A DNA stretch of 64,000 bases from the NCBI RefSeq assembly GCF_023715605.1, contig NZ_JAMBOL010000007.1, positions 1 to 64,000 of the forward strand. Reading direction: 5' to 3'. The position numbers and the translations under genes were made by a program. Positions 10,495-32,907 of the stretch are shown piece after piece; position 1 is the first letter of the stretch; each line of letters begins with the position of its first letter. The DNA comes from Halalkalibacter oceani. GTDB lineage: Bacteria; Bacillota; Bacilli; Bacillales; Bacillaceae_D. The notes under the pieces are model-generated. The model worked only from the letters and a program-made list of their open reading frames with translations. It searched no databases and was not told the DNA's origin.

Positions 10495-10783
10495 AAAGAT
10501 CTCCTTCCTCACAAAATTTCGGACGTCAGTAGGTCTCATCAAAAACGCGCGCTCACTTCACTTGTTCCCTCATCCTTTTTTCCTACCCTATCCATTACTA
10601 TTACGTTTGCTTGCGGTAAAAAATTCTCTTCATTCTTCTATATTATAACTCGTTCTATTCTGTTTTGAAATGGTTAGCGCTTTTTGCTGCAAAATAAGCG
10701 GAAATTATGTATAGATAGGCACAAAGTAAACGTTCTCGACAACATCCCAACGATTCTCTCTGTTTAGGAAACGATAACAAAAA
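10495..10783. other. intergenic region upstream of ntdP
   Basis: Nearly 300 bases between the ntdP start and the sspE terminator. It contains an AT-rich stretch with a possible minus-strand -10 (TAATAT near 10640-10645) for ntdP. No convincing gene was found; the ORF readable at 10655-10921 is an antisense shadow of sspE and its terminator. Confidence 0.4.
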
Positions 10784-10817
10784 GCAGGAAGCAAAACCGT
10801 TTAGGTTCGCTCCCTGC
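10784..10817 (-). terminator. rho-independent terminator of sspE
   Basis: Minus-strand stem GCAGGGAGC / GCTTCCTGC followed by TTTTTG, about 35 bases after the sspE stop codon. Confidence 0.8.
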
Positions 10818-10850
10818 CTGTTTGACGCAATCTCATACAACTTGCTTACA

Positions 10851-11054
10851 TTATTGTTGACGTTGTTGCTGTTGTTGCTGTTGAGCGGATGCTTGACCTT
10901 TACGAGCTTCCGCTTGAGCATTTTGCTGTTTTACTTCTTGAGCGTTTGTTTCGCTCGCAAACTCAGTGTTGAAGCTTTGGTTTTGCGCAGAAGCAGCGTT
11001 TTGCTTACGGACTTGTTGAGCATTTGTTTTAGAAGCTTGTTGTTGTTTGTCCAT
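10851..11054 (-). CDS. sspE: gamma-type small acid-soluble spore protein SspE
   Basis: 67-residue, glutamine- and asparagine-rich protein with no bulky hydrophobic core. It has the family repeat SFNTEFASETNAQEVKQQNAQAE, with the GPR-like cleavage region TEFASE, and a polyglutamine tail. Gamma-type SASP is a germination amino-acid store in spores. A perfect GGAGGTG site precedes the ATG, and a sigma-G-type promoter lies upstream. The gene is next to ntdP and fabL as in B. subtilis. Confidence 0.95.
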   Translation of the reverse strand: MDKQQQASKTNAQQVRKQNAASAQNQSFNTEFASETNAQEVKQQNAQAEARKGQASAQQQQQQQRQQ

Positions 11055-11076
11055 GTGATATCACCTCCACGATACT

Positions 11077-11107
11077 TAAGATGTCCGGGGAGGTGTAAGA
11101 TTATACA
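11077..11107 (-). promoter_or_regulatory. sigma-G-type forespore promoter of sspE
   Basis: Minus-strand TGTATAA (11101-11107), 17-base spacer, CATCTTA (11077-11083), close to the sigma-G consensus TGAATAA / CATACTA. Its position about 22 bases upstream of the start codon suits forespore expression. Confidence 0.65.
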
Positions 11108-11115
11108 ATAATTTT

Positions 11116-11892
<777 letters not shown>

Positions 11893-11983
11893 TTAATTCG
11901 AAACAATACCTTTTCATACCTTTACATTATAGCGCATAGCTCCGACTGCGAACAGCCACACTAGGCAAAGAGGAGGGAATGTG

Positions 11984-12202
11984 ATGTATGACGGTCGTGA
12001 TATGACTGAGCTTTCTACCGTGGAAAAGCAGAACTGGAGCGACGATGAGCTTGCTTTTTTTCATCACAGTTTCCAGCAGATAGCTCCATATGTGAATGCT
12101 GAAGGTGTAACCATTCACCGGGAAATTATTAAAGAAATTGAAAACCGGGGAGGATTGCAGCAGCCCATTACTCACCACCAAGGATTTTTGGATCCATTTT
12201 AA
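11984..12202 (+). CDS. small conserved protein, likely YfhS
   Basis: 72-residue hydrophilic protein (MYDGRDMTEL...) with an amphipathic helical middle (DDELAFFHHSFQQI) and no cysteines or membrane segments. By size and position next to fabL on the mutY side it corresponds to yfhS of B. subtilis, but the assignment rests mainly on synteny. GGAGGG lies 6 bases before the ATG at 11984. Function unknown. Confidence 0.7.
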   Translation: MYDGRDMTELSTVEKQNWSDDELAFFHHSFQQIAPYVNAEGVTIHREIIKEIENRGGLQQPITHHQGFLDPF

Positions 12203-12222
12203 GAGAATTGCACACCTGTTAG

Positions 12223-12266
12223 AAAAAAGCGTCTAAAGGGATTCTTTCCCTTCAGACGCTTTTTTT
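12223..12266. terminator. bidirectional terminator
   Basis: AAAAAAGCGTCTAAAGGG / CCCTTCAGACGCTTTTTTT, with T-runs on both strands, between the convergent yfhS-like gene and the dehydrogenase at 12266. Confidence 0.9.
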
Positions 12267-13138
12267 CAGCTCTTGCTTTGGTACCAGCGGTAAAGCGCCT
12301 GGGTTCCACTGTTTTCTTCCCCCATCGCCGCCAATTCTTCGTACATCGTCTTTGCCTGCTTTAATGCCGGGGTGAGCAGTCCCATCTCTTCTGCCGATTC
12401 CAGCGCAATCGTCATATCTTTAATAAAATGTTTCACGTAAAAGCCAGGCGCGAAATCACCATCAATCATCTTTGGAGCGAGATTGCTCAACGACCAGCTC
12501 CCCGCCGCTCCCGTCGTAATACTCGTCAGCACTTTGTGCTGGTCAAGGCCGGCTTTTTCAGCATAAACCATCGCTTCACACACACCGAGCATATTGCCGG
12601 CAATCGCAATCTGATTCGCTAATTTCGTATGCTGCCCAGCGCCAGCCTCTCCTTGATACCTAATATTCGTTCCCATCGCTTCAAAAATTGGCTTCACTGC
12701 CTGAAAAGCTTCTTCATCTCCGCCAACCATGATTGACAGCTTTCCGTCACGCGCCCCAATATCCCCTCCGGACACAGGAGCGTCCAGGGCATATAGTTGC
12801 TTTTCTTTTGCTTTTTGATAAATATCAACGGCCAGCCGCGGCGAGGATGTCGTCATATCAATGATATAACTGCCCGCCTTCGCCTGTTCAACAATTCCAT
12901 TTTCACCAAGATAAATTTCTTCTACATCCCGGGGATAACCGACAATTGTAATGACGACGTCTGAGGCAGCCGCCAGCTCTGCCGGAGTCTCCTTCCAGAT
13001 GGCCCCTTCTGCCAGCAGTTCTTCCGCCTTTGCTTTTGTCCGCGTATAAACGTGTAACGTATAGCCTGCTTTCATCAAGTTTCTGATCATACCTTTTCCC
13101 ATTACACCTGTACCGATAAAGCCAACTGTTTGAGTCAT
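12266..13138 (-). CDS. 3-hydroxyisobutyrate dehydrogenase family oxidoreductase
   Basis: 290-residue beta-hydroxyacid dehydrogenase. It has an N-terminal Rossmann motif GFIGTGVMGKGM (6-17), substrate block DAPVSGGDIGARDGKLSIMVGG (119-140) and catalytic K172 in GQHTKLANQ. Enzymes of this type oxidise or reduce 3-hydroxyisobutyrate, tartronate semialdehyde or similar short hydroxy acids. It is the last gene of the LacI-linked catabolic block, separated from the aldehyde dehydrogenase by a terminator-like hairpin, so it probably has its own promoter. GGGAGGGG lies 8 bases before the ATG at 13138. Tartronate semialdehyde reductase is an attractive role near glyoxylate genes but is inferred. Confidence 0.85.
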   Translation of the reverse strand: MTQTVGFIGTGVMGKGMIRNLMKAGYTLHVYTRTKAKAEELLAEGAIWKETPAELAAASDVVITIVGYPRDVEEIYLGENGIVEQAKAGSYIIDMTTSSPRLAVDIYQKAKEKQLYALDAPVSGGDIGARDGKLSIMVGGDEEAFQAVKPIFEAMGTNIRYQGEAGAGQHTKLANQIAIAGNMLGVCEAMVYAEKAGLDQHKVLTSITTGAAGSWSLSNLAPKMIDGDFAPGFYVKHFIKDMTIALESAEEMGLLTPALKQAKTMYEELAAMGEENSGTQALYRWYQSKS

Positions 13139-13257
13139 CAAACATTCCCCTCCCAAATCGATTATGTAAAATGGACTAACACGATCTTACTTGTCCATAT
13201 TTTAACATCACTTTCAGAATTTTAATAGCGTCGGCAATCGGCCGGCAAAAACAAGGA

Positions 13258-13294
13258 GGCCGGACCAAAGGTGCTTTTCACCTTCGGCCCGGCC
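13258..13294 (-). terminator. terminator after aldehyde dehydrogenase
   Basis: Hairpin GGCCGGACCAAAGGTG / CACCTTCGGCCCGGCC, inside the AAAGG/CCTT hairpin family, just downstream of the aldehyde dehydrogenase stop codon; no strong T-run. Confidence 0.6.
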
Positions 13295-13307
13295 CCGCGC
13301 GCGTTCC

Positions 13308-14777
13308 TTATTCATCAAAATCAATCATGATACTTTTTGTCTGAGTAAAACTTTCAATCATACTTTCCAAAGAATATTCACGGCCAATTCCGCTTTGCTT
13401 ATAGCCGCCGTACGAGTGCCCCGTCATCATTCCGCCGCCGCGGTTGATTTGAACCCAGCCGGCTTCAAGCAGATTTGCCGTCCGCATCGCACGGGTCGTA
13501 TCCTTCGTCCAAATAAACGCAGCTAACCCATAATCACTTCTGTTCGCCATCTTAATGACTTCCTCTTCATCGTCCCACGGAATGACGATTAAAACCGGAC
13601 CGAAGATTTCTTCCTTCGCCAGACGCAGATCATCATGAGGAGCGGCGAAGATCGTCGGCTCAAGGAAATACCCTTCTGAGAGCGGGCCTTCCGCCGGTGG
13701 TAATCCGCCGAGAAGCAGCTCGATATCGGGGTGATTGATCCCTTCCTCGATGTAGGAGCAAACTTTGTTATACTGCTTCTCATTAATAATCGAGCCCATA
13801 TCGTTATTCTCATCAAGCGGATCGCCTACTTGAAGAAGCTTCGCCTTCGCAATCAGCTTTTCAACAAAGGAATCATAGATTGATTTATGCAAATAGAGAC
13901 GGGATCCGGCTGAGCACGACTGGCCTTGGCGCGCAAATCGCATTGCCGACATCACATTGTCGATTACCTTCTCACTGTCGGCATCAGGGTAAACAATTTG
14001 CGGGCTTTTCCCGCCAAGCTCTAACGAAATCGGAATGATCCGTTCAGCCGCTTCATGCATGATGATTTTTCCTGTTTGCGTCGAACCGGTAAATGTCAGC
14101 TTTCTCACAAGCGGATGCTTCGCCAGTGGCAGGCCGCACTCTTCACCAAAGCCGGTCAAAATGTTGACGACACCCGGCGGCAATATGTCCGCGCAAATTT
14201 TAGCGAGCTTCAGCACGCCTAATGGCGCATCCTCGGCTGCTTTCAACACGATCGTATTCCCTGCCGCCAACGCCGGCGCGATTTTTAACGCGGCAAGCTG
14301 AACCGGGGCATTCCATGGGATAATTCCGCCGATCACGCCATATGGCTCTCGCTGGGTATAAGCGAAGAGTTGATTATCAACAGGGAGGGTTTCGCCTTTC
14401 AGCTCTCCGGCGACGCCACCGAAATAGCGAATGACATCAACGACACCCTTTGCTTCCCCTTTCGCCTGTGTTTTCAAGGCATTCCCCGTTTCCGTGGCAA
14501 TCGTCCGGGCCAGCTCTTCAAACTGCGCATCAACGGCATCAGCGATTTTCCAGAGCATCCGCCCCCGTTCTCGCGCCGGCACTTTTCTCCAACTGTCAAA
14601 CGCCTCGTTCGCTGCCTGCACGGCGTTGTCGACATCCTCAGCTGTCGCACGCGGCACTTCGGCAATAACGGTTCCCCGTTTCGCCGGGTTCTCAATTTGA
14701 AAAAATTCCTTTCCCGCTGCTTCTGTCCACTTTCCGTTAATTAGCATAAGCTCTCGTGTGATTGTTTCGGTTTTCAT
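13308..14777 (-). CDS. NAD(P)-dependent aldehyde dehydrogenase
   Basis: 489 residues, normal ALDH-superfamily length. Catalytic Cys288 (GQSCSAGSR), general base Glu253 (LELGGKSP), NAD-site IIPWNAP (152-158) and GSTQTGK (231-237) are intact. It follows the TRAP transporter genes with a 49-base gap and probably shares their transcript, so it likely oxidises an aldehyde made from the imported acid by the hydroxyacid dehydrogenase. Similar to betaine/vanillin-type ALDHs; the substrate cannot be fixed from sequence. GGAAGG precedes the ATG. Confidence 0.9.
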   Translation of the reverse strand: MKTETITRELMLINGKWTEAAGKEFFQIENPAKRGTVIAEVPRATAEDVDNAVQAANEAFDSWRKVPARERGRMLWKIADAVDAQFEELARTIATETGNALKTQAKGEAKGVVDVIRYFGGVAGELKGETLPVDNQLFAYTQREPYGVIGGIIPWNAPVQLAALKIAPALAAGNTIVLKAAEDAPLGVLKLAKICADILPPGVVNILTGFGEECGLPLAKHPLVRKLTFTGSTQTGKIIMHEAAERIIPISLELGGKSPQIVYPDADSEKVIDNVMSAMRFARQGQSCSAGSRLYLHKSIYDSFVEKLIAKAKLLQVGDPLDENNDMGSIINEKQYNKVCSYIEEGINHPDIELLLGGLPPAEGPLSEGYFLEPTIFAAPHDDLRLAKEEIFGPVLIVIPWDDEEEVIKMANRSDYGLAAFIWTKDTTRAMRTANLLEAGWVQINRGGGMMTGHSYGGYKQSGIGREYSLESMIESFTQTKSIMIDFDE

Positions 14778-14826
14778 TTAAAACACCTTCCTTTTCTTAT
14801 TTAAACATACAAGCTAAAACTCCCCG

Positions 14827-16113
14827 TCACCCGTAAAAGAGGTTCGGCAAATAATTAAACAGGTCAGGCAAAACAATCATCAACACTAAAATAACCATGA
14901 TACAAATAATAAAGGGAATACAGGCCCTCGCAACCTGAAACAGTCCGGCATTCCCGATCGACGAGGCGACAAACAGATTCAGTCCGACAGGCGGCGTCAA
15001 CACACCAATACTTAAATTGACCGCCAGCATGACGCCAAACAAAATCGGGTCATAGCCGATATTCAGGATAGCCGGCAAAAAGAGCGGTGTGACGACTAAA
15101 ATGACCGAGCCGGCGTCGAGGAACATTCCGAGAATAATGACGATAAAATTAATTAACAGCAAAATAAGAATTTTGTTTTCCGTAATCGTTAACAAGCTTT
15201 CGGTCATCGCCGCGGGAATTTGCTGAATCGTTAATGTCCACGACAATAAATTAGCCGAAGCGATAACAATCATAATAACGCAAGAAGCATAAGCGGCGCG
15301 CGCAAATACACTCGGAAGCTCTTTAAGAGAGATTTCCCTGAACACAATCACCGACAAAATAAACGCATAGCCCGCGGCGACAGCGGCAGATTCCGTCGGC
15401 GTAAAAGCCCCGATCACAATTCCTCCCATTATAATAACAGGCAGCAAAAAAGCCGGAATCGTTTTTAACGAAATTTTCAAAAACTGACGGAAGAAAATTT
15501 TTGATCCAATGGGGTAATTCTCTTTTCTCGCGTGAAAAAACACCACTACGGCAAAAAGAATCGCCATCAGCACTCCCGGAACATAGCCGGCGATAAAAAG
15601 CTGACCAATCGATACCTCGGCCGTTAAGCCATAAATAATGAGCGGAATGCTCGGCGGAATAATCGGACCAATCGAACCAGCTGCCGCGATGACGCCGGAG
15701 GCAAAGTTCTTATGGTAGCCTTCTTTTTTCAACGCCGGAATCATAATGCCGCCAACTGCGGCCGTCCCTGCAGAGGCCGAGCCGCTAATGCTGGAAAAAA
15801 ACATGCTCGTGCCGATCCCGACATACGCCAAGCCCCCTCTGACACGCCCAATGATCGCCTTCGTAAACTCGACGAGCTGACCGGAGATACTTTTCGTATT
15901 CATTAATTCTCCGGCAAGAATAAAAAGAGGAATCGCCATTAGCGGAAAGCTGTCGACACCGGTAATCATTTTCTGACCAAGCATCGAAATCGGAATCCCG
16001 CCGGTAAGAAACAAGGAAATCGAGATTGTTCCCACCCCGAGGGCGATGAAAATCGGGATGCCGATGGCCAGGCAGGCAAAGAGAACGACTAGGAAAAGCA
16101 ACAAAGCCAACAT
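14827..16113 (-). CDS. dctM: TRAP transporter large permease subunit (DctM)
   Basis: 428-residue, very hydrophobic protein with about 12 membrane segments and the DctM signatures PLFILAGELMN, SGSASAGTAAVGGIMIPAL and IGPIIPPSIPLIIYG. It carries the sodium-coupled substrate translocation path of a tripartite ATP-independent periplasmic-type transporter. It lies 3 bases after dctQ, showing tight operon structure. Confidence 0.93.
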   Translation of the reverse strand: MLALLLFLVVLFACLAIGIPIFIALGVGTISISLFLTGGIPISMLGQKMITGVDSFPLMAIPLFILAGELMNTKSISGQLVEFTKAIIGRVRGGLAYVGIGTSMFFSSISGSASAGTAAVGGIMIPALKKEGYHKNFASGVIAAAGSIGPIIPPSIPLIIYGLTAEVSIGQLFIAGYVPGVLMAILFAVVVFFHARKENYPIGSKIFFRQFLKISLKTIPAFLLPVIIMGGIVIGAFTPTESAAVAAGYAFILSVIVFREISLKELPSVFARAAYASCVIMIVIASANLLSWTLTIQQIPAAMTESLLTITENKILILLLINFIVIILGMFLDAGSVILVVTPLFLPAILNIGYDPILFGVMLAVNLSIGVLTPPVGLNLFVASSIGNAGLFQVARACIPFIICIMVILVLMIVLPDLFNYLPNLFYG

Positions 16114-16116
16114 ACG

Positions 16117-16656
16117 CTACCCTCTTTTCTTTCTGAATCTGAAGAACATTTGAAACAGCACAACGCCGACCATCAAGCAAATGGACACCGGCATCACGAT
16201 ATAAACGAAATTCATCTGAATTCCTAGGCCTGGTGAAGTTTGCATCGAGACGATTTCCAGCATCTCTAAGCTCCCGATGAAAATAACCGCGAGAAAAGCC
16301 AGAATGATCAGACCGCGCAATACATACAGAGCGAGACCCAATTTTTCCGAAACGTTGTTGTATACATTATCTACCTGAATATGCAAATTACGCCTCAAAG
16401 CAATGGCGGAGCCTAAGAAAATTAACCAAACAGCGAGAAAGCGGGAAAGCTCTCCGGCCCAAGTAATGGAATTCCCCGTCACAAAGCGGGCATAAACTTG
16501 AGCAATGACAACGATTAAGATGAGAAACAGCATTGTCGCAACAAGGGTGTTCTCAGCCTTCTCCAGCATAATCAATCGTTTCTTCTTCCGCTTCGATTGC
16601 AGCTCTTCTTCGATTTCCATCTGCTCAACTTGTAAGCTCGATTGTTGTTTGGACAT
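16117..16656 (-). CDS. dctQ: TRAP transporter small permease subunit (DctQ)
   Basis: About 179 residues with four membrane segments after a long charged N-terminus (KRKKKR near residue 25). The family motif SITWAGELSRFLAVWLIFLGSAIALRRN is present. It pairs with DctM. Two starts are possible: ATG 16656 after AAAGGG (8-base gap) or ATG 16698 after GTGAGG (7-base gap), which adds 14 residues. Confidence 0.9.
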   Translation of the reverse strand: MSKQQSSLQVEQMEIEEELQSKRKKKRLIMLEKAENTLVATMLFLILIVVIAQVYARFVTGNSITWAGELSRFLAVWLIFLGSAIALRRNLHIQVDNVYNNVSEKLGLALYVLRGLIILAFLAVIFIGSLEMLEIVSMQTSPGLGIQMNFVYIVMPVSICLMVGVVLFQMFFRFRKKRG

Positions 16657-16738
16657 ATGAATGACCCTTTCTTCTATAATTCCTCGCTGCTCTGCCATAA
16701 GGAAGCCTCACAGCAAAACAGCGAGTACGGCATGCAGC

Positions 16739-17788
16739 CTATTCTCCAAGATGGCGTATTTCTTCTACCAGCTCTTCCAGATCCGGATTTTCCTGATAAA
16801 AACTCTGATAGACGACTTCACTTGCTTCTCTAAATTCCGTTAAGTCCGGTGTTGTCAAAATCATGCCGTTATCAACGAGGAGCTGCTTATTTTCCGCTTC
16901 CTGTCCACGGTGAAGTTCGTTGTGATAACGCGCCGTTTCCTTTACCGCTTCGGTTACGACCTCCTGTAGCTCTGGCGAGAGGTCGGTAAACCATTTATCG
17001 TTGGCAAGAATAATATTTTGCCCGTACATATGGTTCGTCTCAGCTACATAATCCTGCACTTCGTAAAATTTTCCCGAAGCAGCGGTTGTATAGGCATTTT
17101 CCTGGCCGTCAACCACCCCTTGCTGCAGTGCACTATACAGCTCGTTATAGGCAATTGTCGTCACATTCGCCCCAAGCGCTTCAAGATTGGCGATGGAAAT
17201 CGGAGCTTCCGGCACCCGAAGACTGAGTCCCTTTACATCCTCCAACGAATTGATTTCCCTGCTGCTGTTGGTGATTTGCCGAAATCCGTTATCAATAAAC
17301 GCCAGTCCTCTCAACCCGGTCTCCGCCGCCATTCCGTCCAATATTTCCTGTCCTAGTTCCCCATCGAGCACTTGATCGACATGATCAAAGTCGCGAAATA
17401 AATACGGAAGGTCAGTTAAGTTAACAGGTTCGTAAATCGTCCCTAATATCGGACTTAAATGGGTAATATGAATTTGTCCTGCCTGCGTCTGTTCCATGAC
17501 ATCACGTTCTCCACCCAGTTGGCCGCCACCGTATATTTCAACTTGCAGCTGACCATTGCTGTTTTCTTCAATCATCGGTTTCAGTTTCTCCGTGAACGAA
17601 ATATGAACAGGATGCGAGTCCGGCTGCTGATGCGCAACAGTGATGACTTGCGCTTCGGTTTCCGTACCAGCTTGCGCCTCCCCGTCCCCGCCTGATTCAG
17701 CTGCCTCGTTTCCGCATGCTGCTAAAAGCAAGAGAAAGGCCACAATCAATAAAGCGCTTACATTTTTCACATTGGCTACCTTTTTCAT
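16739..17788 (-). CDS. dctP: TRAP transporter solute-binding lipoprotein (DctP)
   Basis: About 349 residues. A lipoprotein signal peptide with lipobox LLAAC is followed by a low-complexity linker and a DctP-type substrate-binding domain with the conserved-arginine region LSLRVPEAP, where the carboxylate of the ligand normally binds. It is anchored outside the membrane and feeds DctQM. An in-frame ATG at 17821 overlaps the stop codon of the preceding gene (TAATG) but lacks a binding site; the AAGGGGG site suits ATG 17788. Confidence 0.9.
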   Translation of the reverse strand: MKKVANVKNVSALLIVAFLLLLAACGNEAAESGGDGEAQAGTETEAQVITVAHQQPDSHPVHISFTEKLKPMIEENSNGQLQVEIYGGGQLGGERDVMEQTQAGQIHITHLSPILGTIYEPVNLTDLPYLFRDFDHVDQVLDGELGQEILDGMAAETGLRGLAFIDNGFRQITNSSREINSLEDVKGLSLRVPEAPISIANLEALGANVTTIAYNELYSALQQGVVDGQENAYTTAASGKFYEVQDYVAETNHMYGQNIILANDKWFTDLSPELQEVVTEAVKETARYHNELHRGQEAENKQLLVDNGMILTTPDLTEFREASEVVYQSFYQENPDLEELVEEIRHLGE

Positions 17789-17820
17789 TTTCATCTTCCC
17801 CCTTAAGCTCTTCATTTTCA

Positions 17821-19665
17821 TTAAACCGAGGCGACATTTTCAACCAGCTTCACTGCGGCTAAATCCTCTATCACTTGACAAACCGCCGTCTGGTCCAGTG
17901 CACCCTTATTATGAATTTTCGCTGTATGGAACAAATTGTAGGTGCTTGTTCCGACAAAGGACGGCACTTCGGCCCTCTGCGTCATCTCCATAAAGAGACC
18001 GAGATCCTTATGCATATGATTTAGCATGAATTTGACGTTTTCATAGGTGTTATAAATAATATTCGGACCGAAATATTGCAAAATTTTACTGTTGCCCATG
18101 CTTTTCGCAAATACATCAGCCATCACTTTTACATCCAATCCGTGCTTAACCCCTGTCGCAAACGACTCGCCCAAAGCGACGATGCTTGCCGCCCCGACCA
18201 TGTTGTGGCAGAGCTTCAACGCTTGTGCCAATCCAGACTCTCCGATGTATTCAATGTTCTCGCCAATATATTCGACATAGGCGAGCACTTCCTCAAACCG
18301 TTCTTTATCCCCGCCAACCATGATCGTCAATGTTCCATCTTCGGCTCCGGCAGGTCCCCCGCTGACCGGGCAATCAAAGTAATAAGCGTCACGCCGCTGA
18401 CAGAAGTCATTCATTTCACGCGTTGTCGCCGGATCAATCGTACTTAAATCCAGAATCCTTGTTCCACTGAGAATCGAATCAGCTATCCCATCCTCTCCTT
18501 GAAACAGCTCCTTAATCACCTGCGGACCAGGAAGGCTTAAAAAGATCACATCAGCAAATTGCGCTACCTCCCTTGGATGACGGGCAACGAGACCTCCCGC
18601 CTGACGAATAGCTTCCTGCCCTGCTTCTGAAATATCATAGGCAAGCACTTCACAATTGTTTTTTCGTAAATTTTTCAGCACTCCTCTGCCAATAGCGCCG
18701 ACACCGATTAAACCGACTTTTTTAGCTCCCTCTAATGACACCGCTTTCAATTCCGCTTTTGGCAAATGATTGTTTTCAATTAACGTAACACCGGCTAACT
18801 GTTCAATCACCTGGCAAACAGCCGTATGATCGAGCGGACCTTTTCCATTGTTTCTCGCTGCGTGATATAAGTTATACGCGCTTGCGCCAATAAAGGAAGG
18901 GACTCCGATTTGCTGTGTCATCCGTACATAGAGGCCAAGATCCTTATGCATATGATTTAGCATGAATTTAACATTTTCATAGGTGTTGTGAATAATATTG
19001 GGACCGAAATACTCCAATGATCTGCTGCCGGCTAAGCTTTTTCCAATCACATCAGCGATGACTTGAACATTCAGCCCGTGCTTAACCCCTGTCGCGAACG
19101 CTTCACCTAAAGCGACGATATTTGCTGCTCCGACCATGTTATGGCAGAGCTTCAACGCCTGCGCCAATCCTGAATCTCCGATGTATTCAATATTTCCACC
19201 GATGTACTCAACATACGTTCGCACTTCCTCGAACTGCTCCTGATCGCCGCCAACCATAATCGTCAGTGTCCCGTCCTCCGCTCCGGCAGGACCTCCACTG
19301 ACCGGGCAGTCAAAATAATAAGCGCCACGCTGCTGACAGAAAGTATTCATCTCCCGCGTCGTCGCCGGATCGATTGTACTTAGATCGAGAATTCTAGTTC
19401 CGCCGAGAATTGAATCCGCTATTCCGTCCTCTCCGTGAAACAGCTCCTTAATGACCTGCGGCCCGGGAAGACTTAAAAACATCACATCTGCAAACTGCGC
19501 AACCTCTCGCGGATGACGGGCAACGAGACCTCCCGCTCCTTTAATTGCCTCCTGTCCTGCTTCTGAAATGTCATAGGCAAGCACTTCACAATTGTTTTTC
19601 CGTAAATTTTTCAGCACTCCTCTGCCAATTGCTCCAACGCCAATCAAACCTATCTTTTTCATCAT
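17821..19665 (-). CDS. double-length 3-hydroxyisobutyrate dehydrogenase-like protein (tandem fusion)
   Basis: 614 residues made of two complete, mutually very similar beta-hydroxyacid dehydrogenase units in one frame. Unit 1 covers residues 1-~300 and unit 2 ~315-614, joined by a short linker (PKAELKAVSLEGA). Each has the Rossmann motif GLIGVGAIGRG, the substrate block DCPVSGGPAGAEDGTLTIMV and the catalytic lysine in QALKLCHN (K172 and K484), so both look active. Family members are normally ~290-300 residues. The DNA halves are 17821-18723 and 18724-19665. It heads the operon dctP-dctQ-dctM-aldehyde dehydrogenase, opposite a LacI regulator. AGAGTG precedes the start weakly. Substrate unknown; 3-hydroxyisobutyrate, threonate or a similar hydroxy acid are options. 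Confidence 0.9.
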   Translation of the reverse strand: MMKKIGLIGVGAIGRGVLKNLRKNNCEVLAYDISEAGQEAIKGAGGLVARHPREVAQFADVMFLSLPGPQVIKELFHGEDGIADSILGGTRILDLSTIDPATTREMNTFCQQRGAYYFDCPVSGGPAGAEDGTLTIMVGGDQEQFEEVRTYVEYIGGNIEYIGDSGLAQALKLCHNMVGAANIVALGEAFATGVKHGLNVQVIADVIGKSLAGSRSLEYFGPNIIHNTYENVKFMLNHMHKDLGLYVRMTQQIGVPSFIGASAYNLYHAARNNGKGPLDHTAVCQVIEQLAGVTLIENNHLPKAELKAVSLEGAKKVGLIGVGAIGRGVLKNLRKNNCEVLAYDISEAGQEAIRQAGGLVARHPREVAQFADVIFLSLPGPQVIKELFQGEDGIADSILSGTRILDLSTIDPATTREMNDFCQRRDAYYFDCPVSGGPAGAEDGTLTIMVGGDKERFEEVLAYVEYIGENIEYIGESGLAQALKLCHNMVGAASIVALGESFATGVKHGLDVKVMADVFAKSMGNSKILQYFGPNIIYNTYENVKFMLNHMHKDLGLFMEMTQRAEVPSFVGTSTYNLFHTAKIHNKGALDQTAVCQVIEDLAAVKLVENVASV

Positions 19666-19753
19666 TTAGCCACACTCTCTTTTCGAAAATTCAAATAAAT
19701 AAGTCGATAACAGTTTACTAAAGCGGAATAACGTTCTATTTCACCTCCGTTAA

Positions 19754-19765
19754 TTAAACGTTTAA
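19754..19765. promoter_or_regulatory. LacI-family operator O1
   Basis: Perfect 12-base palindrome TTAAACGTTTAA upstream of the double dehydrogenase gene. It shares its core with the larger palindrome at 19805-19832. Confidence 0.75.
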
Positions 19766-19804
19766 CATCAGTAAAAAACTTACTTAATATGCAACTAATT
19801 TCCG

Positions 19805-19832
19805 TAAATAGGTTAAACGTTTAACCTATTTA
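19805..19832. promoter_or_regulatory. LacI-family operator O2, 28-bp perfect palindrome
   Basis: A 28-base exact palindrome centred on GGTTAAACGTTTAACC. LacI-family proteins bind such CG-centred palindromes. Two operators 54 bases apart (centre to centre) in front of the dehydrogenase-TRAP operon allow cooperative repression or looping. Confidence 0.85.
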
Positions 19833-20035
19833 GACTATAAAATATGTTCCTTTTCGTGTCAATAACTTTCTGAAAATTAATTTTATTAAGCGTCTCATTT
19901 ATCCAATTTCAGCAAATACCTTATAATAAAGCGAATTAATGCAATCCATTTCTTTCTCTCTGCTTCAGAACAAAAAACATATCAAAAGCTCGTTTTTTAG
20001 GTATAATGGAAAAAACATTAATTTCTGCACCCTAA

Positions 20036-20055
20036 ATAGTTAATCGTTAAACCTA
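20036..20055. promoter_or_regulatory. degenerate LacI-type operator near the lacI promoter
   Basis: AGTTAATCGTTAAACC, an imperfect match to the O1/O2 core, downstream of a TATAAT box (about 20002-20007) in front of the lacI gene. It suggests autoregulation. The remaining 19833-20035 sequence is AT-rich and holds only promoter-like elements. Confidence 0.5.
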
Positions 20056-20173
20056 AACCTGCTGCTGTTCCTGGGATACATTCGTTGAATTCAATACGGG
20101 GGATCGTTACACTTACTATAGGGAGAAATTAATTTACGCTATTCTATTAGATAGAGGAGTTAGGAGTTACATA

Positions 20174-21178
20174 ATGAAAATAACGATGAAAACGATTGCG
20201 CAAGAAGCTGGGGTTTCGGTCACCACCGTTTCACATGTCATCAACGGAACTAAAAAAATATCAGCAGAAAAGCATAAAATCATAACGGATCTCATTAAGA
20301 AATATAATTATGTTCCTAATTCAATGGCTCAAAGCTTGCGAAATCATTCGACCAAAACAGCAGGCTTAGTTGTATCCAGCTTTCCCGATTCACATGTTAC
20401 GAATATCGTCAATGGAATTGGCAGACGAGCACAGGAAGCAGGCTATAATCTGCTCTTCGTGAACACGAATGAAAATGAAGAGTACGAGCGGGAAACGATC
20501 CATCTTCTCCATTCGAAAATGGTTGATGGGTTGATTTTATCTCCTACCTCAAGCAATTTAACCTACTTGCAAAAACTGATTGATAAACAGTTCCCGATTG
20601 TTTTCGTCAACCGCTATGATACTTTGTACGATCAGATTCCAAGGGTCGGGGCGAACAACTATCAGGCGGGCTTTGACGCGACTACGCATCTTATTAAACA
20701 CGGCCACCAGGAAATCGGCTTAGTTTGCGGGTTAAGGAAAAATTACATCACGACGACGGAAGAGCGGATTAAAGGTTACAAAGAGGCTTTACTAAAGCAT
20801 AACCTACACGTAAACGAGGATTATCTAGTCGCCACCAATGCTACAGTAGAAGGTGGAAAAAGAGCAACAAAAGCGTTATTAGCAAAACACCCGCAGCTTA
20901 CTGCGCTGTTTTGCGTCAATGATCTGACAACGATCGGCTCGATTGAAGCTCTTCATGAAATGGAGCTTGCCTGCCCCGAAGATGTTGCTGTTATTGGCTG
21001 CGGCGACTTTGAAGCTGCTTCCATTATTGACCCTCCCGTCACAACCGTCCGCCTGGCGCCCGAAACGATCGGCATTACAGCATTCGATGCCTTGCTCAGC
21101 AAAATCAATAATAACGACTATTGCCAGCATATCGAATTACCGACCTCACTGCTGATTCGAAAATCGTGCGGATGTTAA
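20174..21178 (+). CDS. LacI/GalR-family transcriptional regulator
   Basis: 334 residues. The N-terminal helix-turn-helix MKTIAQEAGVSVTTVSHVIN and hinge helix (PNSMAQSLR) are followed by a periplasmic-binding-protein-like effector domain; the tail IRKSCGC is typical of the family. Divergent from the double dehydrogenase/TRAP operon and flanked by TTAAACGTTTAA operators, it is the likely repressor of that operon, released by the imported substrate. AGGAGT sites precede the ATG. Confidence 0.92.
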   Translation: MKITMKTIAQEAGVSVTTVSHVINGTKKISAEKHKIITDLIKKYNYVPNSMAQSLRNHSTKTAGLVVSSFPDSHVTNIVNGIGRRAQEAGYNLLFVNTNENEEYERETIHLLHSKMVDGLILSPTSSNLTYLQKLIDKQFPIVFVNRYDTLYDQIPRVGANNYQAGFDATTHLIKHGHQEIGLVCGLRKNYITTTEERIKGYKEALLKHNLHVNEDYLVATNATVEGGKRATKALLAKHPQLTALFCVNDLTTIGSIEALHEMELACPEDVAVIGCGDFEAASIIDPPVTTVRLAPETIGITAFDALLSKINNNDYCQHIELPTSLLIRKSCGC

Positions 21179-21179
21179 A

Positions 21180-21225
21180 AGAGGCTCGGATAAAAGGCTG
21201 TTCTTTACCTTTTATCCGAGCCTCT
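21180..21225. terminator. terminator after lacI, AAAAGG-core hairpin
   Basis: Stem AGAGGCTCGGATAAAAGG / CCTTTTATCCGAGCCTCT, starting 2 bases after the lacI stop and followed by the tag AAGCAATGAGCGGAGCCG. Same inner stem as the hairpin at 22598-22640. Confidence 0.8.
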
Positions 21226-21326
21226 AAGCAATGAGCGGAGCCGCCGTAAATCGTGCTAAGAAGGCGACACGACAATAGAAAAGTAAGCAGGAAAGCGGGT
21301 TTCCTGCTTCAACGACTCTGCCAATG

Positions 21327-22337
21327 TTATTGCAGCCCTTCCAAAATCGAACCATATGTCTCGGTCAGGTTCTCCAGCTCTTTCATAAAGTCCTCTGAAT
21401 TTAACCAGCCATCGCGCAAATGCAAATAATTCGCTTCTTCGTATTCTTTATAATCAGGGCGCTCTTTTGCTTCTTCAAGCGCCTGCTCCAAAAGCTCGAC
21501 AATCTCCGGCGGTGTATCGGCATGAACCATAAATCCGCGGTTTTGCCCATCTGTTACGTCAATCCCTATTTCTGTTGAAATCGGGGTATCCTCAAAGCCT
21601 TCTAATGGGGAATCCGCGAAAGCGACGAGCATGTTCAATGTTCCCTCCTGAAGATAGCCCATCGCCGGCCCAGGTTCCTCGGCAATGACATCAATATGGC
21701 CGCCTAACAATGCTGCTGTCATTTCCCCGGCGCCTTCATAGGAAATATAATTTAATTTCGTCCCTGTCGCTTCTTCAAACTGCCTGACGACAAGTTCATC
21801 GAACCCGGCGGAACCCGTCCCGCCAATCATAATTTCTCCCGGACTTTCCTTTGCCTGAGCAATCAGATCATCAATGTCCGCAAACCTGCCATCACTCAAC
21901 GCATGAAAAGCCATCGTGTCGTGCTGGACACGACCAATTGCCTTATACGTGCTTAACTCATGAGGAGTGCTGCCAGAAGCAAGATTGATCGGATAGTTCG
22001 AAGTCATGGACCAGATCGTATAGCCATCAGCCGGTGCGCGGGCGACATGATCGGCAGCGTGGATTCCAGCCGCTCCTTCAAGGTTTACAATGTTGACCGT
22101 CGCATCGAGGATATCTTCGAGTTCCTTGGCAATCGCTCTTGCAAAATTATCGCTGCCGCCACCGGCCCCAAACCCAACAATAATTTCAATCGGCCTCTCC
22201 GGATATCCGCTGGCAGAGCCCGACCCTTCCTCCGTAGTCCCTTCTCCGGCGGCGGCTTCATCCGTCGCGCCTCCTCCACAGGCTTGCATCAGTACAACCA
22301 TTGCTAATAACAGAAACGGAATTACGATTTTTTTCAT
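21327..22337 (-). CDS. tripartite tricarboxylate transporter-type binding lipoprotein (TctC/Bug family)
   Basis: About 336 residues. A lipoprotein signal peptide with lipobox LMQAC is followed by a Gly/Glu/Ala-rich linker and a Bug-type domain beginning YPERPIEIIVGFGAGGGSDNFAR, the family's ligand-loop motif. These proteins capture carboxylates for TctAB permeases, but no tctA or tctB lies in this window, so it is an orphan. The upstream sigma-54 promoter and UAS match those of the glycolate unit, which suggests capture of glycolate or a related acid. Start is ATG 22337 or GTG 22343, the latter better spaced from GGGGGAGA. A cre box lies between promoter and gene. Confidence 0.85.
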   Translation of the reverse strand: MKKIVIPFLLLAMVVLMQACGGGATDEAAAGEGTTEEGSGSASGYPERPIEIIVGFGAGGGSDNFARAIAKELEDILDATVNIVNLEGAAGIHAADHVARAPADGYTIWSMTSNYPINLASGSTPHELSTYKAIGRVQHDTMAFHALSDGRFADIDDLIAQAKESPGEIMIGGTGSAGFDELVVRQFEEATGTKLNYISYEGAGEMTAALLGGHIDVIAEEPGPAMGYLQEGTLNMLVAFADSPLEGFEDTPISTEIGIDVTDGQNRGFMVHADTPPEIVELLEQALEEAKERPDYKEYEEANYLHLRDGWLNSEDFMKELENLTETYGSILEGLQ

Positions 22338-22386
22338 TTGCACAATGATCTCCCCCATTTCTTTGGTTCGGTTCCAATAACAAAAA

Positions 22387-22400
22387 AGAAAGCGCTATCA
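22387..22400 (-). promoter_or_regulatory. cre box (CcpA site) upstream of tctC-like gene
   Basis: AGAAAGCGCTATCA differs from the cre consensus TGWAANCGNTNWCA only at the first base. It lies downstream of the predicted sigma-54 start site, where CcpA would act as a roadblock when preferred sugars are present. Confidence 0.65.
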
Positions 22401-22475
22401 TTATCTTGCAGCTTCTAACAGCAACCCATCTGTTCCACCCCCTCAGATCATGAATTGCGTCCCATTGATAGTTGC

Positions 22476-22492
22476 ATGCAAAAAACGTACCA
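22476..22492 (-). promoter_or_regulatory. sigma-54 (-24/-12) promoter of tctC-like gene
   Basis: Minus-strand TGGTACG-TTTT-TTGCAT fits the consensus TGGYACR-N4-TTGCW exactly. It is about 140 bases upstream of the tctC-like start codon, and the activator gene lies 7 kb away in the same gene block. Confidence 0.8.
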
Positions 22493-22574
22493 GCAAAAAA
22501 AGCTTGGAATCCTGTGTGATTTCTCTGCTTCTCACATAAAAAATGTTTCTTATTGCACCATCTTGTTCACGCTC

Positions 22575-22591
22575 CGTTTCATTTAGAAACG
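22575..22591 (-). promoter_or_regulatory. upstream activator site, GTTTC-N5-GAAAC type
   Basis: CGTTTC-ATTTA-GAAACG, a perfect 6+5+6 inverted repeat about 85 bases upstream of the -24 element. It has the same geometry as the sites at 32974 and 32997, so the same sigma-54 activator probably binds here. Confidence 0.7.
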
Positions 22592-22597
22592 AAAAAG

Positions 22598-22640
22598 AGG
22601 CTAGGATAAAAGGTTGTTTTTTACCCTTTTATCCTAGCCT
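22598..22640. terminator. terminator after the FAH-family gene, AAAAGG-core hairpin
   Basis: Stem AGGCTAGGATAAAAGG / CCTTTTATCCTAGCCT, followed by the AAGCAATGAGCGGAGCCG tag. It closes the glycolate operon on the minus strand. Confidence 0.75.
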
Positions 22641-22694
22641 TTAAGCAATGAGCGGAGCCGTTGCTGCTGTATGCTGCCTCGTTATGCCTCTCCC

Positions 22695-23453
22695 TCACTC
22701 TACGACAAACGTATTTCTCAGAACGCCGATTTCCTTTATTTCACACTCAATCTGATCTCCATCCCGCACAAATTCCGCTCCGAGCGGACTGCCGGTCAGG
22801 ATTACATCCCCTTGCTGTAGCGTCATCACCTGCGAAAGATAAGAAATCATTTTTCTGATCGGAACAATCATCAAGCTCGTTGGACTGTTTTGCTTTTCGA
22901 CTCCGTTCAGTGTCGCGGTAACATTCACGCCAAACGGATCAAGCTCCGTCTCAATGACAGGTCCAAGCGGCGTAAATGTGTCAAATGCTTTGCCGATTGT
23001 CCAATGACCATTTTCATGGAAATATTGCGGCGCTGTGACGTCATTGGCCACCGTATAGCCGAAGACGTAATCAAGCACGCTATCTTCGGGGACATTTTTA
23101 GCTTCTTTCCCGATGATCACCGCCAGTTCTGATTCAAATTTTACTTCCTCAAGCGCCGGGGGTATCACGATATCTTCCCCCGGTCCGATGACAGACGAGG
23201 TCGGCTTGAAGAAAAAGACAGGAATCTCCGGCAATGTTTCAGGTAAATCATCCGTTTGGCCAACGAAGTTCGCGCCGATGCCGATAATATTTCGCGGTTC
23301 AAGTGGTGCCAGCACCTGAACATCTGAGCTCGTGACCGTATCCCCCGTCTCCTCCCACGCTCCAAAAATTGTCCCGCTAATTTTCTTAATCGTTGTGCCT
23401 TCAAGCACACCGTGATGAATCTGTCCATTTTGCTCATATCTGATAAATTTCAT
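22695..23453 (-). CDS. fumarylacetoacetate hydrolase (FAH) family protein
   Basis: 252 residues with the FAH catalytic domain. Metal ligands sit in FESELAVIIG (about residues 106-115) and in the acidic residue of the GYTVANDVT block; FDTFTPLGP and LTGSPLG are also conserved. Members hydrolyse acylpyruvates, decarboxylate oxaloacetate or act on ureidoglycolate-like compounds. As the last gene of the glycolate/malate unit, oxaloacetate decarboxylase or acylpyruvase activity would fit, but this is inference. It begins 15 bases after the malic enzyme gene. Confidence 0.85.
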   Translation of the reverse strand: MKFIRYEQNGQIHHGVLEGTTIKKISGTIFGAWEETGDTVTSSDVQVLAPLEPRNIIGIGANFVGQTDDLPETLPEIPVFFFKPTSSVIGPGEDIVIPPALEEVKFESELAVIIGKEAKNVPEDSVLDYVFGYTVANDVTAPQYFHENGHWTIGKAFDTFTPLGPVIETELDPFGVNVTATLNGVEKQNSPTSLMIVPIRKMISYLSQVMTLQQGDVILTGSPLGAEFVRDGDQIECEIKEIGVLRNTFVVE

Positions 23454-23468
23454 TGCATCCTTCCTCCC

Positions 23469-24668
23469 TTATATGACCGCATCACTTGTTGTAGCTCTTC
23501 TTGCGACTCCTGTTTCAATAGCCGTTTGTGCCACTGCTTCGGCCACTGCCGGAACGACGCGCGCGTCGAATACGTTCGGAATCACATAATCAGCTGTGAG
23601 GCTTTCCCGTTCAATTAAATTGGCGATCGCATATACCGCCGCTATTTTCATTTCTTCATTGATCTCGGAAGCTCTCACACTCAATGCTCCTTTAAAAATA
23701 CCCGGGAAAGCGAGCACATTGTTCACCTGATTCGGCAAATCTGACCGTCCTGTGCCGATGACAGCTGCCCCGGCCGCCTTGGCAGCATCCGGCATGATTT
23801 CCGGCTGGGGATTCGCCATCGCAAAAATAATCGGGTCTTCATTCATCGTCGAAATCATCTCGCTTGTCAGCGCTCCGGCAACTGAGACACCAATAAATAC
23901 ATCCGCCCCCTTGACCGCTTCTGCGAGTGAGGCAGAAATTTGCCGTTGATTCGTCTGTCCGGCAATTGATTGTTTCATTTCATTTAAACCGCTTCGACCT
24001 TGATGAATCGGTCCCTTTGAATCACAAAGAATCAGGTCATTCACTCCAATATGCAGCAGCAATTTCGTAATGGCGATGCCCGCTGCCCCCGCTCCATTGA
24101 CGACTACCGTCACATCTTCCATTTCCTTGTTGACATAGTTTAAAGCATTGAGCAAGCCTGCTGCCGTAACGATTGCTGTCCCGTGCTGGTCATCATGAAA
24201 AACCGGAATGTTCATCTCTTTCTTTAACTGCTCCTCAATAATAAAACAATTCGGCGCTGAAATATCCTCGAGATTAATGCCGCCGAATGTCGGCTCCATC
24301 GCTTTAACCGTTTGAATAATGTCGTCCGGGTCCTGCGTGTTTAAACAAATCGGAAACGCGTCAATATTGGCAAATGCTTTAAACAAAGCCGCCTTTCCTT
24401 CCATCACCGGCATCGAAGCTTCGCCTCCGATATTGCCAAGTCCAAGCACCGACGTGCCATCGGAGATAATGCCGACGAGGTTGCCTTTTATCGTATAATC
24501 ATAAACCTTCTCCGGATGTTGGTGAATAGCTGTGCACGGCTCTGCGACCCCAGGAGAATAGGCTAAACTTAAGTCTTCCATACTGTTTAACTCAACTTTC
24601 AAATCAACGCTTAGTTTTCCGTTCGCTTGCTTGTGCAGGGCTAATGCCTTCTCTCTGATGGTCCGCAT
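23469..24668 (-). CDS. NAD(P)-dependent malic enzyme
   Basis: 399 residues, the short bacterial malic enzyme without a phosphotransacetylase tail. Catalytic Tyr37 is in LAYSPGVAEPC; the metal/malate site lies in SDGTSVLGLGNIGGEASMPV, and the dinucleotide fold in VVVNGAGAAGIAI. It decarboxylates malate to pyruvate. Lying directly after malate synthase, it would drain malate made from glyoxylate and return acetyl-CoA via pyruvate. AAGGAG with a 9-base gap selects ATG 24668. Confidence 0.92.
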   Translation of the reverse strand: MRTIREKALALHKQANGKLSVDLKVELNSMEDLSLAYSPGVAEPCTAIHQHPEKVYDYTIKGNLVGIISDGTSVLGLGNIGGEASMPVMEGKAALFKAFANIDAFPICLNTQDPDDIIQTVKAMEPTFGGINLEDISAPNCFIIEEQLKKEMNIPVFHDDQHGTAIVTAAGLLNALNYVNKEMEDVTVVVNGAGAAGIAITKLLLHIGVNDLILCDSKGPIHQGRSGLNEMKQSIAGQTNQRQISASLAEAVKGADVFIGVSVAGALTSEMISTMNEDPIIFAMANPQPEIMPDAAKAAGAAVIGTGRSDLPNQVNNVLAFPGIFKGALSVRASEINEEMKIAAVYAIANLIERESLTADYVIPNVFDARVVPAVAEAVAQTAIETGVARRATTSDAVI

Positions 24669-24707
24669 TTCCTTCATCTCCTTATTACATGCTTTTTTTG
24701 TCAGCCG

Positions 24708-26887
24708 TTACGCTCTTTGCGCTGTTTTCGCTTTAAATTCAATTCTACGCTGATGCAAAATAGGCTCAGTATAACCATTCGGCTGCTCTCTTCCTCTAAA
24801 AACCAAATCTTTTGCCGCCTGGAAAGCGACGGACTCGTCAAAGTTAGCTGCCATCGGACGATAGGCCGGATCATGGCTGTTTTGTTCATCGACAACCTTC
24901 GCCATTCGTTTCAGCGTTTCCACTACTTGCTCTTCCATGCAAATACCATGACGGAGCCAGTTCGCCATATGCTGGCTCGAAATCCTCAATGTCGCCCGGT
25001 CTTCCATCAAGCCGATATTCGTAATGTCAGGGACCTTCGAGCAGCCGACTCCCTGCTCCACCCAGCGGACGACATAGCCGAGAATGCCTTGCGCGTTATT
25101 ATCAAGCTCCTGCTGAATCTCCTCCGCGCTCCAATGAGCCTCCTGCGCCACAGGCAGCTCCAGTATCGCATCTTGGTAGCGTTCGGCTTTCTGCTTCAGC
25201 TCATTTTGCACGGCTATGACATCAATCTCATGATAATGGAGAGCATGAAGGGCCGCCGCTGTCGGTGATGGCACCCAGGCTGTATTCGCCCCTGCTTCAA
25301 GCTGAGCTGATTTTTGTTCAAGCATTGCCTTCATTAAATCAGGCATCGCCCACATTCCTTTGCCGATCTGGGCTTTTCCTTGCAGCCCTGTCTCCAATCC
25401 GGTTTGCACATTTGATTTTTCGTACGCGCCAAGCCAGGCTGCCGATTTCATATCGTTTTTCCGGATCATCGGTCCCGCTTCCATCGAAGTGTGAATTTCA
25501 TCCCCTGTCCGGTCAAGGAAGCCGGTATTTATAAAGACGACTCTGTCCTTCACCTCTCGAATGCACGCTTTTAAATTTAACGATGTCCGCCGTTCTTCAT
25601 CCATGACGCCGATTTTCAGCGTATCCGGCATCAGCCCGAGCATCTTCTCAACGCGAGCAAATAACGTGTTGGCAAAGGCTACCTCTTTGGAGCCGTGCAT
25701 TTTCGGTTTTACAATATAAATGGAGCCTTCCGACGAGTTTTGGTATATGCCATTGCCAAGCAGCGTGTGCTTCGCAATTAAGCTCGTCACGACAGCGTCA
25801 AGAATCCCCTCCGGAATTTCTTCGCCGTTTTGGTCGAGCACGGCGTTAATGGTCATCAGATGGCCGACATTGCGGACGAGCATCATCGAACGTCCGCGCA
25901 GCGTAATCTCATCTCCCGCGGCGGTCGTATACTGACGGTCAGGCTGAAGCGTACGAGTGATTTGCTTTCCTCCTTTAGCGAAGGTCGCTGAAAGATCGCC
26001 TTTCATTAACCCAAGCCAGTTGCGGTACACGAGTACTTTATCTTCCGCATCGACCGCCGCCACCGAATCCTCGCAATCCATGATCGTTGTAATCGCCGCT
26101 TCGACGACGATATCCTTCACGCCGGCTTTGTCTGTTTTTCCGATAGGATGTGTCCGGTCAATTTGAATCTCAATATGGAGGCCGTTGTTTTTCAGCAAAA
26201 TCGAGCTTGGCGCATCCGGCGCTCCCTGATAGCCGACAAACTTTTCTTCATTAGCTAACATAGCAGATTGACCATTCTCAAGAGCAATCGTAAGTTGACC
26301 ATTGATCAGCCGATAGTCTGTCACCTCATGATGAGAGCCGTTTTCCAAAGGAAACGTTTTATCAAGAAAATCTTTCGAAAAGGAAATAACCTTTTCGCCA
26401 CGGACCGGATTGTATCCCTCACCGCGCTCTGCCCCGCCCTCTTCGGAAATCGCATCAGTGCCGTAAAGGGCATCATATAAGCTTCCCAGCGGGCATTGGC
26501 GGCATTGATTGCATAGCGGGCGTTATTAACCGGAACAACGAGCTGCGGACCCGCCTGGCTAGAAAATTCGACATCAACCTGATCGGTCGTAATTTGGAAA
26601 TCCTCCGGCTCAGGCTCCAAGTATCCAATTTCTGTCAGGAAGGATTTATACTGCGCAAATTCAAATGCTCCACTATTTTTCCGATACCAGTCGTCAATTT
26701 TCTGCTGGAGGGCATCACGCTCGGCAAGCAGTGCTTTGTTTTCCGGTGCAAACTCCTTAACCAATGCTTCAAAATCAGTCCAAAATTGCTGCTGCTCCAC
26801 ACCGCTGTCCGGCAGTGCTTCTGTGTTAATAAACTGGTACAGCTCTGAAGCGACTTGAAAACTTCCAACCTTCTCATAGTTTTGCAT
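24708..26887 (-). pseudogene. glcB: malate synthase G (glcB) with a single-base frameshift
   Basis: The coding sequence is split in two frames. Codons 1-134 (26887-26486) end at Trp134 in NAARW; the remaining 592 codons read in the next frame ([13 protein letters not shown]...), and the sum, 726 residues, equals a normal malate synthase G. The break is at 26485-26487, where three G occur (minus strand) and a fourth would restore the frame. Sequence on both sides is fully conserved, including [14 protein letters not shown], the METMEDP-equivalent region and the SDGLV-like C-terminal part, so the change is recent or a sequencing error. Enzyme role: glyoxylate + acetyl-CoA to malate. The start at 26887 follows AAGGAGGAG and overlaps the end of glcF by 14 bases. 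Confidence 0.88.
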
Positions 26888-28262: not shown

Positions 28263-28283
28263 TTCCTCACCTCCAAAGGGTTC

Positions 28284-29720: not shown

Positions 29721-29733
29721 AGGCCATTCTCCT

Positions 29734-31620: not shown

Positions 31621-31696
31621 GTCGTCCACCCCTTGCGACTTGATAGTTCTATCATAGCACGCAATGAAACGAGCAAGTTTGAATTTTGGAATTTTA

Positions 31697-32863: not shown

Positions 32864-32907
32864 TTGAGCTCTCTCCTTCAATTGCAGAATCATTTCACGT
32901 AATTAGT

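Follow-up and report, generated by a model that had tools for sequence, protein, structure and literature searches.

A rare double beta-hydroxyacid dehydrogenase in Halalkalibacter: two apparently competent units in one chain, probably with gene-converted nucleotide-binding parts

When examining a 64,000-nucleotide stretch of the Halalkalibacter oceani genome (contig NZ_JAMBOL010000007.1, positions 1 to 64,000; hereafter, the window, with forward-strand coordinates), we observed on the minus strand a single open reading frame (ORF), starting with ATG, that encodes two complete beta-hydroxyacid dehydrogenase (beta-HAD) units in one chain; the plus strand of the same stretch contains many stops in that register. 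The parts of the double gene are as follows.

17821-19665, minus strand: coding sequence of the fused double beta-HAD, 614 amino acids (ORF, self-alignment, Pfam)
18775-19659, minus strand: unit 1, residues 3-297, with the catalytic lysine K172 at 19150-19152 (alignment, Pfam, fold model of the unit)
18724-18774, minus strand: linker, residues 298-314, 17 residues (alignment of the units)
17824-18723, minus strand: unit 2, residues 315-614, with the catalytic lysine K484 at 18214-18216 (alignment, Pfam, motifs)

In the ungapped self-alignment, K3 is the first residue of unit 1 and K315 that of unit 2, which places the units 312 residues apart, and 246 of 300 residues are identical between them. 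The Pfam domains NAD_binding_2 (PF03446) and NAD_binding_11 (PF14833) follow each other twice in the protein, with whole-protein scores of 255.4 bits (cut-off 21) and 178.7 bits (cut-off 30), respectively. Both units contain intact versions of the motifs with established roles in beta-HADs, namely, GxGxxG, D-x-PVSGG, the catalytic lysine with an asparagine four residues on, and KD; among the aligned units, GxGxxG, PVSGG, the lysine and KD are present in all nine. The presence of two full units in one ORF, claimed in a preliminary description of this DNA, is thus confirmed and chance is excluded; K172 and K484, proposed there as the catalytic lysines, share one conserved alignment column, and the boundary between the two stretches given there, 17821-18723 and 18724-19665, falls where unit 2 begins, at K315.

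The two halves differ at 190 of 900 nucleotides, distributed over the first, second and third codon positions as 37, 29 and 124 (300 each), which shows that each half evolved while coding for protein. In bins of 20 residues, the DNA identity between the units is 75-88% over residues 1-200, 70% over residues 201-220, 93% over residues 221-240 and 60-67% in the final 60 residues; the earlier statement that the halves are very similar at the start and diverged elsewhere thus holds only approximately. These differences, a longest exact in-register match of only 32 bases and the recurrence of the double ORF in three further genomes leave practically no room for an assembly artefact or a collapsed tandem repeat, for which we found no supporting point; the preliminary description likewise took it not to be a simple assembly duplicate.

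The double gene is surrounded by the following genes and sites.

16739-17821, minus strand: TRAP solute-binding protein (DctP family), whose first possible ATG shares one base with the stop codon of the double gene (TAATG)
16117-16698, minus strand: DctQ-like small TRAP subunit, recognised by position and by 39-43% identity to the equivalent Paenibacillus and Ammoniphilus ORFs
14827-16113, minus strand: DctM large TRAP subunit
13308-14777, minus strand: aldehyde dehydrogenase (ALDH), with a relative in the cluster of all four loci that carry a double gene
12266-13156, minus strand: a further beta-HAD paralogue, of the ordinary single-unit type, with about 30% identity to the units of the double
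20174-21178, plus strand: LacI-family regulator, divergent from the double gene
19754-19765, no strand: operator-like palindrome TTAAACGTTTAA, one of only two places in the window with at most one mismatch
19805-19832, no strand: 28-bp perfect palindrome that encloses the same core of 12 bp, TTAAACGTTTAA, a probable LacI-family operator

The two TTAAACGTTTAA-type sites with at most one mismatch compare with a mean of 0.22 expected in the window, and two are reached in 2 of 100 shuffles. The corresponding intergenic stretch of H. oceani P106, which carries the same double gene, has sites with one and three mismatches to the 16-bp core of the 28-bp palindrome. The adjoining LacI-family repressor probably controls the operon. 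A search of positions 10000-24000 against Rfam at the gathering thresholds gave no matches. Farther away, the minus strand of 22695-32893 carries genes for FAH-family, malic enzyme-like, malate synthase, CCG-domain and FAD-oxidase proteins, a PrpR_N/sigma-54-type regulator and a class V aminotransferase, a run that may serve glycolate/glyoxylate metabolism. At 24708-26953 (minus strand), the malate synthase ORF, recognised by Pfam, is 546 amino acids long and is preceded by an overlapping ORF of 210 amino acids; at the corresponding place in P106 (L010, 732-2978), matched by position and length only, there is a single ORF of 748 amino acids, so the malate synthase gene is possibly split in the window or in its assembly.

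The same double ORF is present in H. oceani P106 (locus L010, genome G782; 95% identity), Cytobacillus purgationiresistens (L012; 73%) and Ammoniphilus resinae (L011; 65%), so that the four double loci span three genera. The match in G782 has the same position as that in G008, a genome of the window's genus. Genome searches were run with E-value limits of 1e-80 to 1e-100 (1e-60 for the double protein against the phylum), and the counts are matches at each limit. Matches were found in two of 13 genomes of the genus, both double; in two of 41 genomes of the family, the same two; and in one of 397 genomes of the order, the window's own. Among 398 genomes of the class, 16 matched, including two doubles, that of the window and that of genome G178, which carries the Ammoniphilus sequence; the remaining 14 are single by span and open frame. 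Three of 398 genomes of the phylum matched, the only double being in the own genome. The family of Cytobacillus yielded one match in 193 genomes and that of Ammoniphilus one in four, in each case the genome of the species itself. In the large genome draws, about 3-6 candidates were scored per genome, and doubles below roughly 35-40% identity (an estimate) could escape; contigs were scanned for doubles with six short exact query peptides, a procedure that finds close relatives only. As many as 2090 of 72,556 plasmid records match, all below 60% identity, and none of the 20 matches listed is a double, each spanning about 0.86-0.91 kb. No viral relatives were found by tblastn with the full double protein, and the unit profile gave one distant partial match among viruses. 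Among the titles and beginnings of abstracts listed from the open-licence literature, we found no description of a bacterial double beta-HAD. The double is rare among the genomes searched, which fits its earlier presentation as an unusual rather than a common and catalogued architecture, although a tandem plant protein is in print (see below).

The nearest unfused relative that we found is a single unit of Paenibacillus sp. J2TS4 (L013), which is 62-64% identical to the units of the window protein and likewise adjoins a related TRAP transporter, but it is a lone unit, the ALDH beside it is a different one, and its cluster also includes genes for a CoA-transferase and an enoyl-CoA hydratase. 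As a query against 398 genomes of the phylum, this single unit matched only the own genome. In genome G1115, the beta-HAD match of which is only 28% identical in the phylum search, locus L051 (1498-3318) contains a pair of separate beta-HAD genes, encoding 301 and 299 amino acids, that lie side by side in one frame with 15 bases between them and are followed by an ORF that resembles a solute-binding protein. This pair is a possible unfused counterpart of the double, that is, an arrangement from which the fusion could arise.

The preliminary description named the protein a double 3-hydroxyisobutyrate dehydrogenase, and this name finds no support. The units score 188.0 and 175.2 bits with the respective model, TIGR01692, the cut-off of which is 291.6 bits, and only the whole protein, at 356.1 bits, exceeds it. 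The same applies to TIGR01505 (2-hydroxy-3-oxopropionate reductase; cut-off 340.75 bits), with 199.6 and 172.1 bits for the units and a sum of 363.5. Both specific names would thus be an artefact of the summation of two sub-threshold units, and neither 3-hydroxyisobutyrate dehydrogenase (HIBADH) nor tartronate semialdehyde reductase activity is supported at single-unit scores of 172-200 bits, below the NCBIfam cut-offs. With NF043037 (L-threonate dehydrogenase; cut-off 350 bits), even the whole protein stays below at 314.7 bits (units, 163.2 and 159.7), and for each unit all six NCBIfam models listed give scores below their cut-offs. The model of a single unit (pLDDT 86.5, pTM 0.85) has its best fold match, with a TM score of 0.89-0.90, in 3cky, 2-(hydroxymethyl)glutarate dehydrogenase, a beta-HAD of nicotinate fermentation, followed by tartronate semialdehyde reductase, glxR, and gamma-hydroxybutyrate and 3-hydroxyisobutyrate dehydrogenases. 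The AlphaFold2 model of the whole protein, built from four sequences, is poor (pLDDT 51.8, pTM 0.36) and so does not predict how the units pair within the chain. An aspartate at the end of the second strand is a sign of NAD+ use, and its presence suggests that the double uses this cofactor.

The gene context suggests that a small hydroxy acid is imported and oxidised in an NAD-dependent reaction. Of the four loci with a double gene, three have the TRAP genes next to it; none were found in the 17.9-kb Cytobacillus stretch. The ALDH relatives are 74.8-97.8% identical among the four loci; the ALDH gene comes next after the double gene in Ammoniphilus and Cytobacillus and is separated from it by the TRAP genes in the window and in P106. 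The occurrence of a closely related ALDH in all four loci suggests a route from hydroxy acid via semialdehyde to acid, and the Paenibacillus single unit, with its TRAP transporter and a different ALDH, indicates that fusion is not needed for such a pathway. We also considered an acyl-CoA pathway, for which the CoA-transferase and enoyl-CoA hydratase genes of the Paenibacillus and Cytobacillus clusters would speak. The link is weak because the CoA-transferase relatives, 70-74% identical, in genomes G000, G008 and G783 lie in other clusters and because no ORF of at least 150 amino acids matching the enoyl-CoA hydratase was found in the three stretches fetched. The acrylate and 3-hydroxypropionate pathways serve here only as a lead. 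In Ammoniphilus, a separate stretch (L048, 6121-8611) carries tandem CoA-transferase genes that are 59% and 70% identical to that of Cytobacillus, preceded by an ORF that we take to be PdxA-like.

The origin of the double was addressed by comparing the two parts of the unit. In the Rossmann part (residues 1-160 of the unit), the N-terminal and C-terminal units of the same protein are 91% identical in the window, 92% in P106, 88% in Cytobacillus and 71% in Ammoniphilus, compared with 63-72% across the double-bearing genera (67-72% between Halalkalibacter and Cytobacillus). In the helical part (about residues 200-300), the N unit of the window is only 66% identical to its own C unit, versus 78% (N with N) and 77% (C with C) in the comparison with Cytobacillus; within Cytobacillus, the two units are 77% identical, no lower than to their window counterparts. 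For the first trees, four of 11 candidate outgroup loci were kept, the motif and length filter having yielded nothing for the other seven; in the second set, L002 was dropped as well on account of its very long branch, and the quartet and helical-DNA analyses included nine units only. AU tests of the Rossmann part rejected grouping by position (p 7e-67 and 1e-77; 2e-46 and 4e-11 without the distant outgroup).

Separate tandem duplication and fusion in each genus, with the unit-specific helical residues produced by parallel selection for complementary partners, is the history that the whole-unit protein trees, in which N groups with C within each genus, would favour at face value, and adjacent unfused beta-HAD genes do occur elsewhere (L051). 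We nevertheless consider it unlikely, given the behaviour of the helical part. With the helical-part proteins, the grouping of the four Halalkalibacter units is rejected (p 0.017 and 0.016), all eight double units come together to the exclusion of the Paenibacillus single unit (support 97/97 without L002 and 89/98 with it), and the C unit of Cytobacillus joins those of Halalkalibacter (93/97 and 91/93, not starred). The corresponding group of all double units has no support in the Rossmann tree (36/52 without L002). The N units form no clade in the best helical trees, and an N clade is not rejected (p 0.40 and 0.50); neither is a grouping of the Cytobacillus N and C units (p 0.127; 0.095 without L002). 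The trees of the helical-part DNA do not decide the matter: at codon positions 1 and 2, the grouping of the Halalkalibacter units is not rejected (p 0.092), and with all positions N joins C weakly in both Halalkalibacter and Cytobacillus, in the former very weakly (30/3).

Site patterns also bear on the choice. A breakpoint at unit residue 151 separates a part with one 'unit' site among 95 from a part with 17 among 44, and none of 5000 shuffles gave one as strong; beyond it, 'species' sites still exceed 'unit' sites, 27 versus 17, with seven 'cross' sites in addition. For the amino acid quartets of the window and Cytobacillus, the counts of species, unit and cross sites are 28, 0 and 1 in residues 1-150 and 2, 6 and 2 in residues 151-296, and the latter excess of unit sites goes against independent duplications, as does the sequence ENNHL at the start of the linker, common to Halalkalibacter and Cytobacillus. 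At third codon positions, the excess of inter-unit identity in the first part is significant in Cytobacillus (p 7.6e-7) and in P106 (p 0.02), and in the window it is not (63% versus 56%; Fisher p 0.24). Between the window and P106, 80 unit, 14 species and three cross sites were counted; most sites within Halalkalibacter thus follow position, which implies that much of the homogenisation is older than the split of these two. The Ammoniphilus double departs from the N/C pattern, a point in favour of independent duplications: with the window, 477 of 5000 shuffles gave a breakpoint as strong, the amino acid sites after residue 150 are four species, two unit and six cross, and the comparison with Cytobacillus gives six, three and three. 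Judging by these few sites, it is as if the order of units had been exchanged, the Ammoniphilus C unit being nearer to the window N unit.

Together, these sequence comparisons make a fairly strong case that the fusion predates the split of the Halalkalibacter and Cytobacillus copies and that the Rossmann parts were homogenised in each lineage by gene conversion, with the helical parts keeping unit-specific residues. The preliminary description spoke of an in-frame tandem duplication; an in-frame double of a beta-HAD unit it is, but a fused ancestor shared with Cytobacillus and later homogenisation of the first half fit better. The data appear best explained by this simplest account. Several points tell against it: the DNA of the helical part leaves the choice undecided, the best helical trees have no N clade, the silent sites of the window show no significant excess in the first part, the Ammoniphilus double departs from the pattern, and shared codon usage may raise within-species similarity.

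From the interdomain helix onwards, six positions differ between the N and C units throughout Halalkalibacter (the window and P106) and Cytobacillus, and the tail contributes a seventh; at positions 215 and 218 (527 and 530 in unit 2) each of the four doubles has one R/E-type and one K/Q-type unit, the order being exchanged in Ammoniphilus. Such differences would be expected if the functions were split, one unit being catalytic, or of one substrate preference, and the other mainly structural, or of another preference; long-chain 6-phosphogluconate dehydrogenase (6PGDH), which is described in PMC8900737 as drawing its active-site residues from the first helical copy only, offers a parallel. In the window protein, by contrast, the lysine, asparagine, SGG and KD are intact in both units, the first 160 residues of which are 91% alike, which suggests that both sites are in use and renders a split of functions improbable.

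Each unit of the window protein possesses the two Pfam domains and the motifs of single-unit beta-HADs such as HIBADH, tartronate semialdehyde reductase and 3cky. The chain departs from the usual layout of the family, one unit per chain assembling into dimers or tetramers: the solved single-unit beta-HADs listed are chains of about 290-320 amino acids, whereas the window protein has two units per chain. A tandem arrangement is already known in plants. The protein AT1G18270, named LTD for L-threonate metabolizing domains, is described in PMC12540250 as containing NAD_binding_2 and NAD_binding_11 twice in succession in one chain, the tandem LtnD-like units being followed by OtnK-like (kinase) and OtnC-like (aldolase) domains. 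The window protein, likened to it by architecture, shares the tandem part and lacks the OtnK/OtnC-like part, with nothing after unit 2. The bacterial double looks like a rare layout with ordinary chemistry.

A different comparison is with long-chain 6PGDH, in which, according to PMC10851217, an extension of about 130 residues replicates the beta-HAD dimer fold, and for which PMC8900737 gives as the most probable origin a beta-HAD whose gene was duplicated and then lost a domain. The window protein falls outside that family: it scores 51.1 bits with TIGR00873 against a cut-off of 426.7 bits and has two Rossmann domains. The likeness is in layout rather than one of demonstrated kinship. In long-chain 6PGDH, the helical domain is duplicated but there is a single Rossmann domain, the second nucleotide-binding domain being absent, whereas the window protein has kept both, and its layout thus resembles the step proposed to precede the domain deletion. 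Conceivably, although we put this forward only tentatively, the double is an analogue of the inferred ancestor of long-chain 6PGDH, that is, a covalent pseudo-dimer with gene-converted nucleotide-binding halves and fixed, complementary helical partners.

Taken as a whole, the reading that we favour, and regard as reasonably probable, is that the protein is a covalent pair of competent beta-HAD units, descended from a fused ancestor with gene-converted Rossmann parts, that forms a pseudo-dimer and oxidises an imported hydroxy acid. The gene, probably governed by the LacI-family repressor, would yield two covalently joined, catalytically competent units. Since beta-HADs are described in PMC10851217 as dimerising through the C-terminal helical bundle, units 1 and 2 may well pair as a pseudo-dimer, the intramolecular dimer suggested in the preliminary description, with two chains perhaps forming a pseudo-tetramer. 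The TRAP transporter may import a small beta-hydroxy acid, which the double would oxidise with NAD+ to a semialdehyde that the ALDH of the cluster would oxidise further.

The case also reveals an annotation trap, in which a double protein passes an 'equivalog' cut-off by summing two sub-threshold units. The bacterial double opens the layout expected before the 6PGDH domain deletion to direct study and provides a natural test case for the question why homogenisation affects one part of a repeated protein and spares another.
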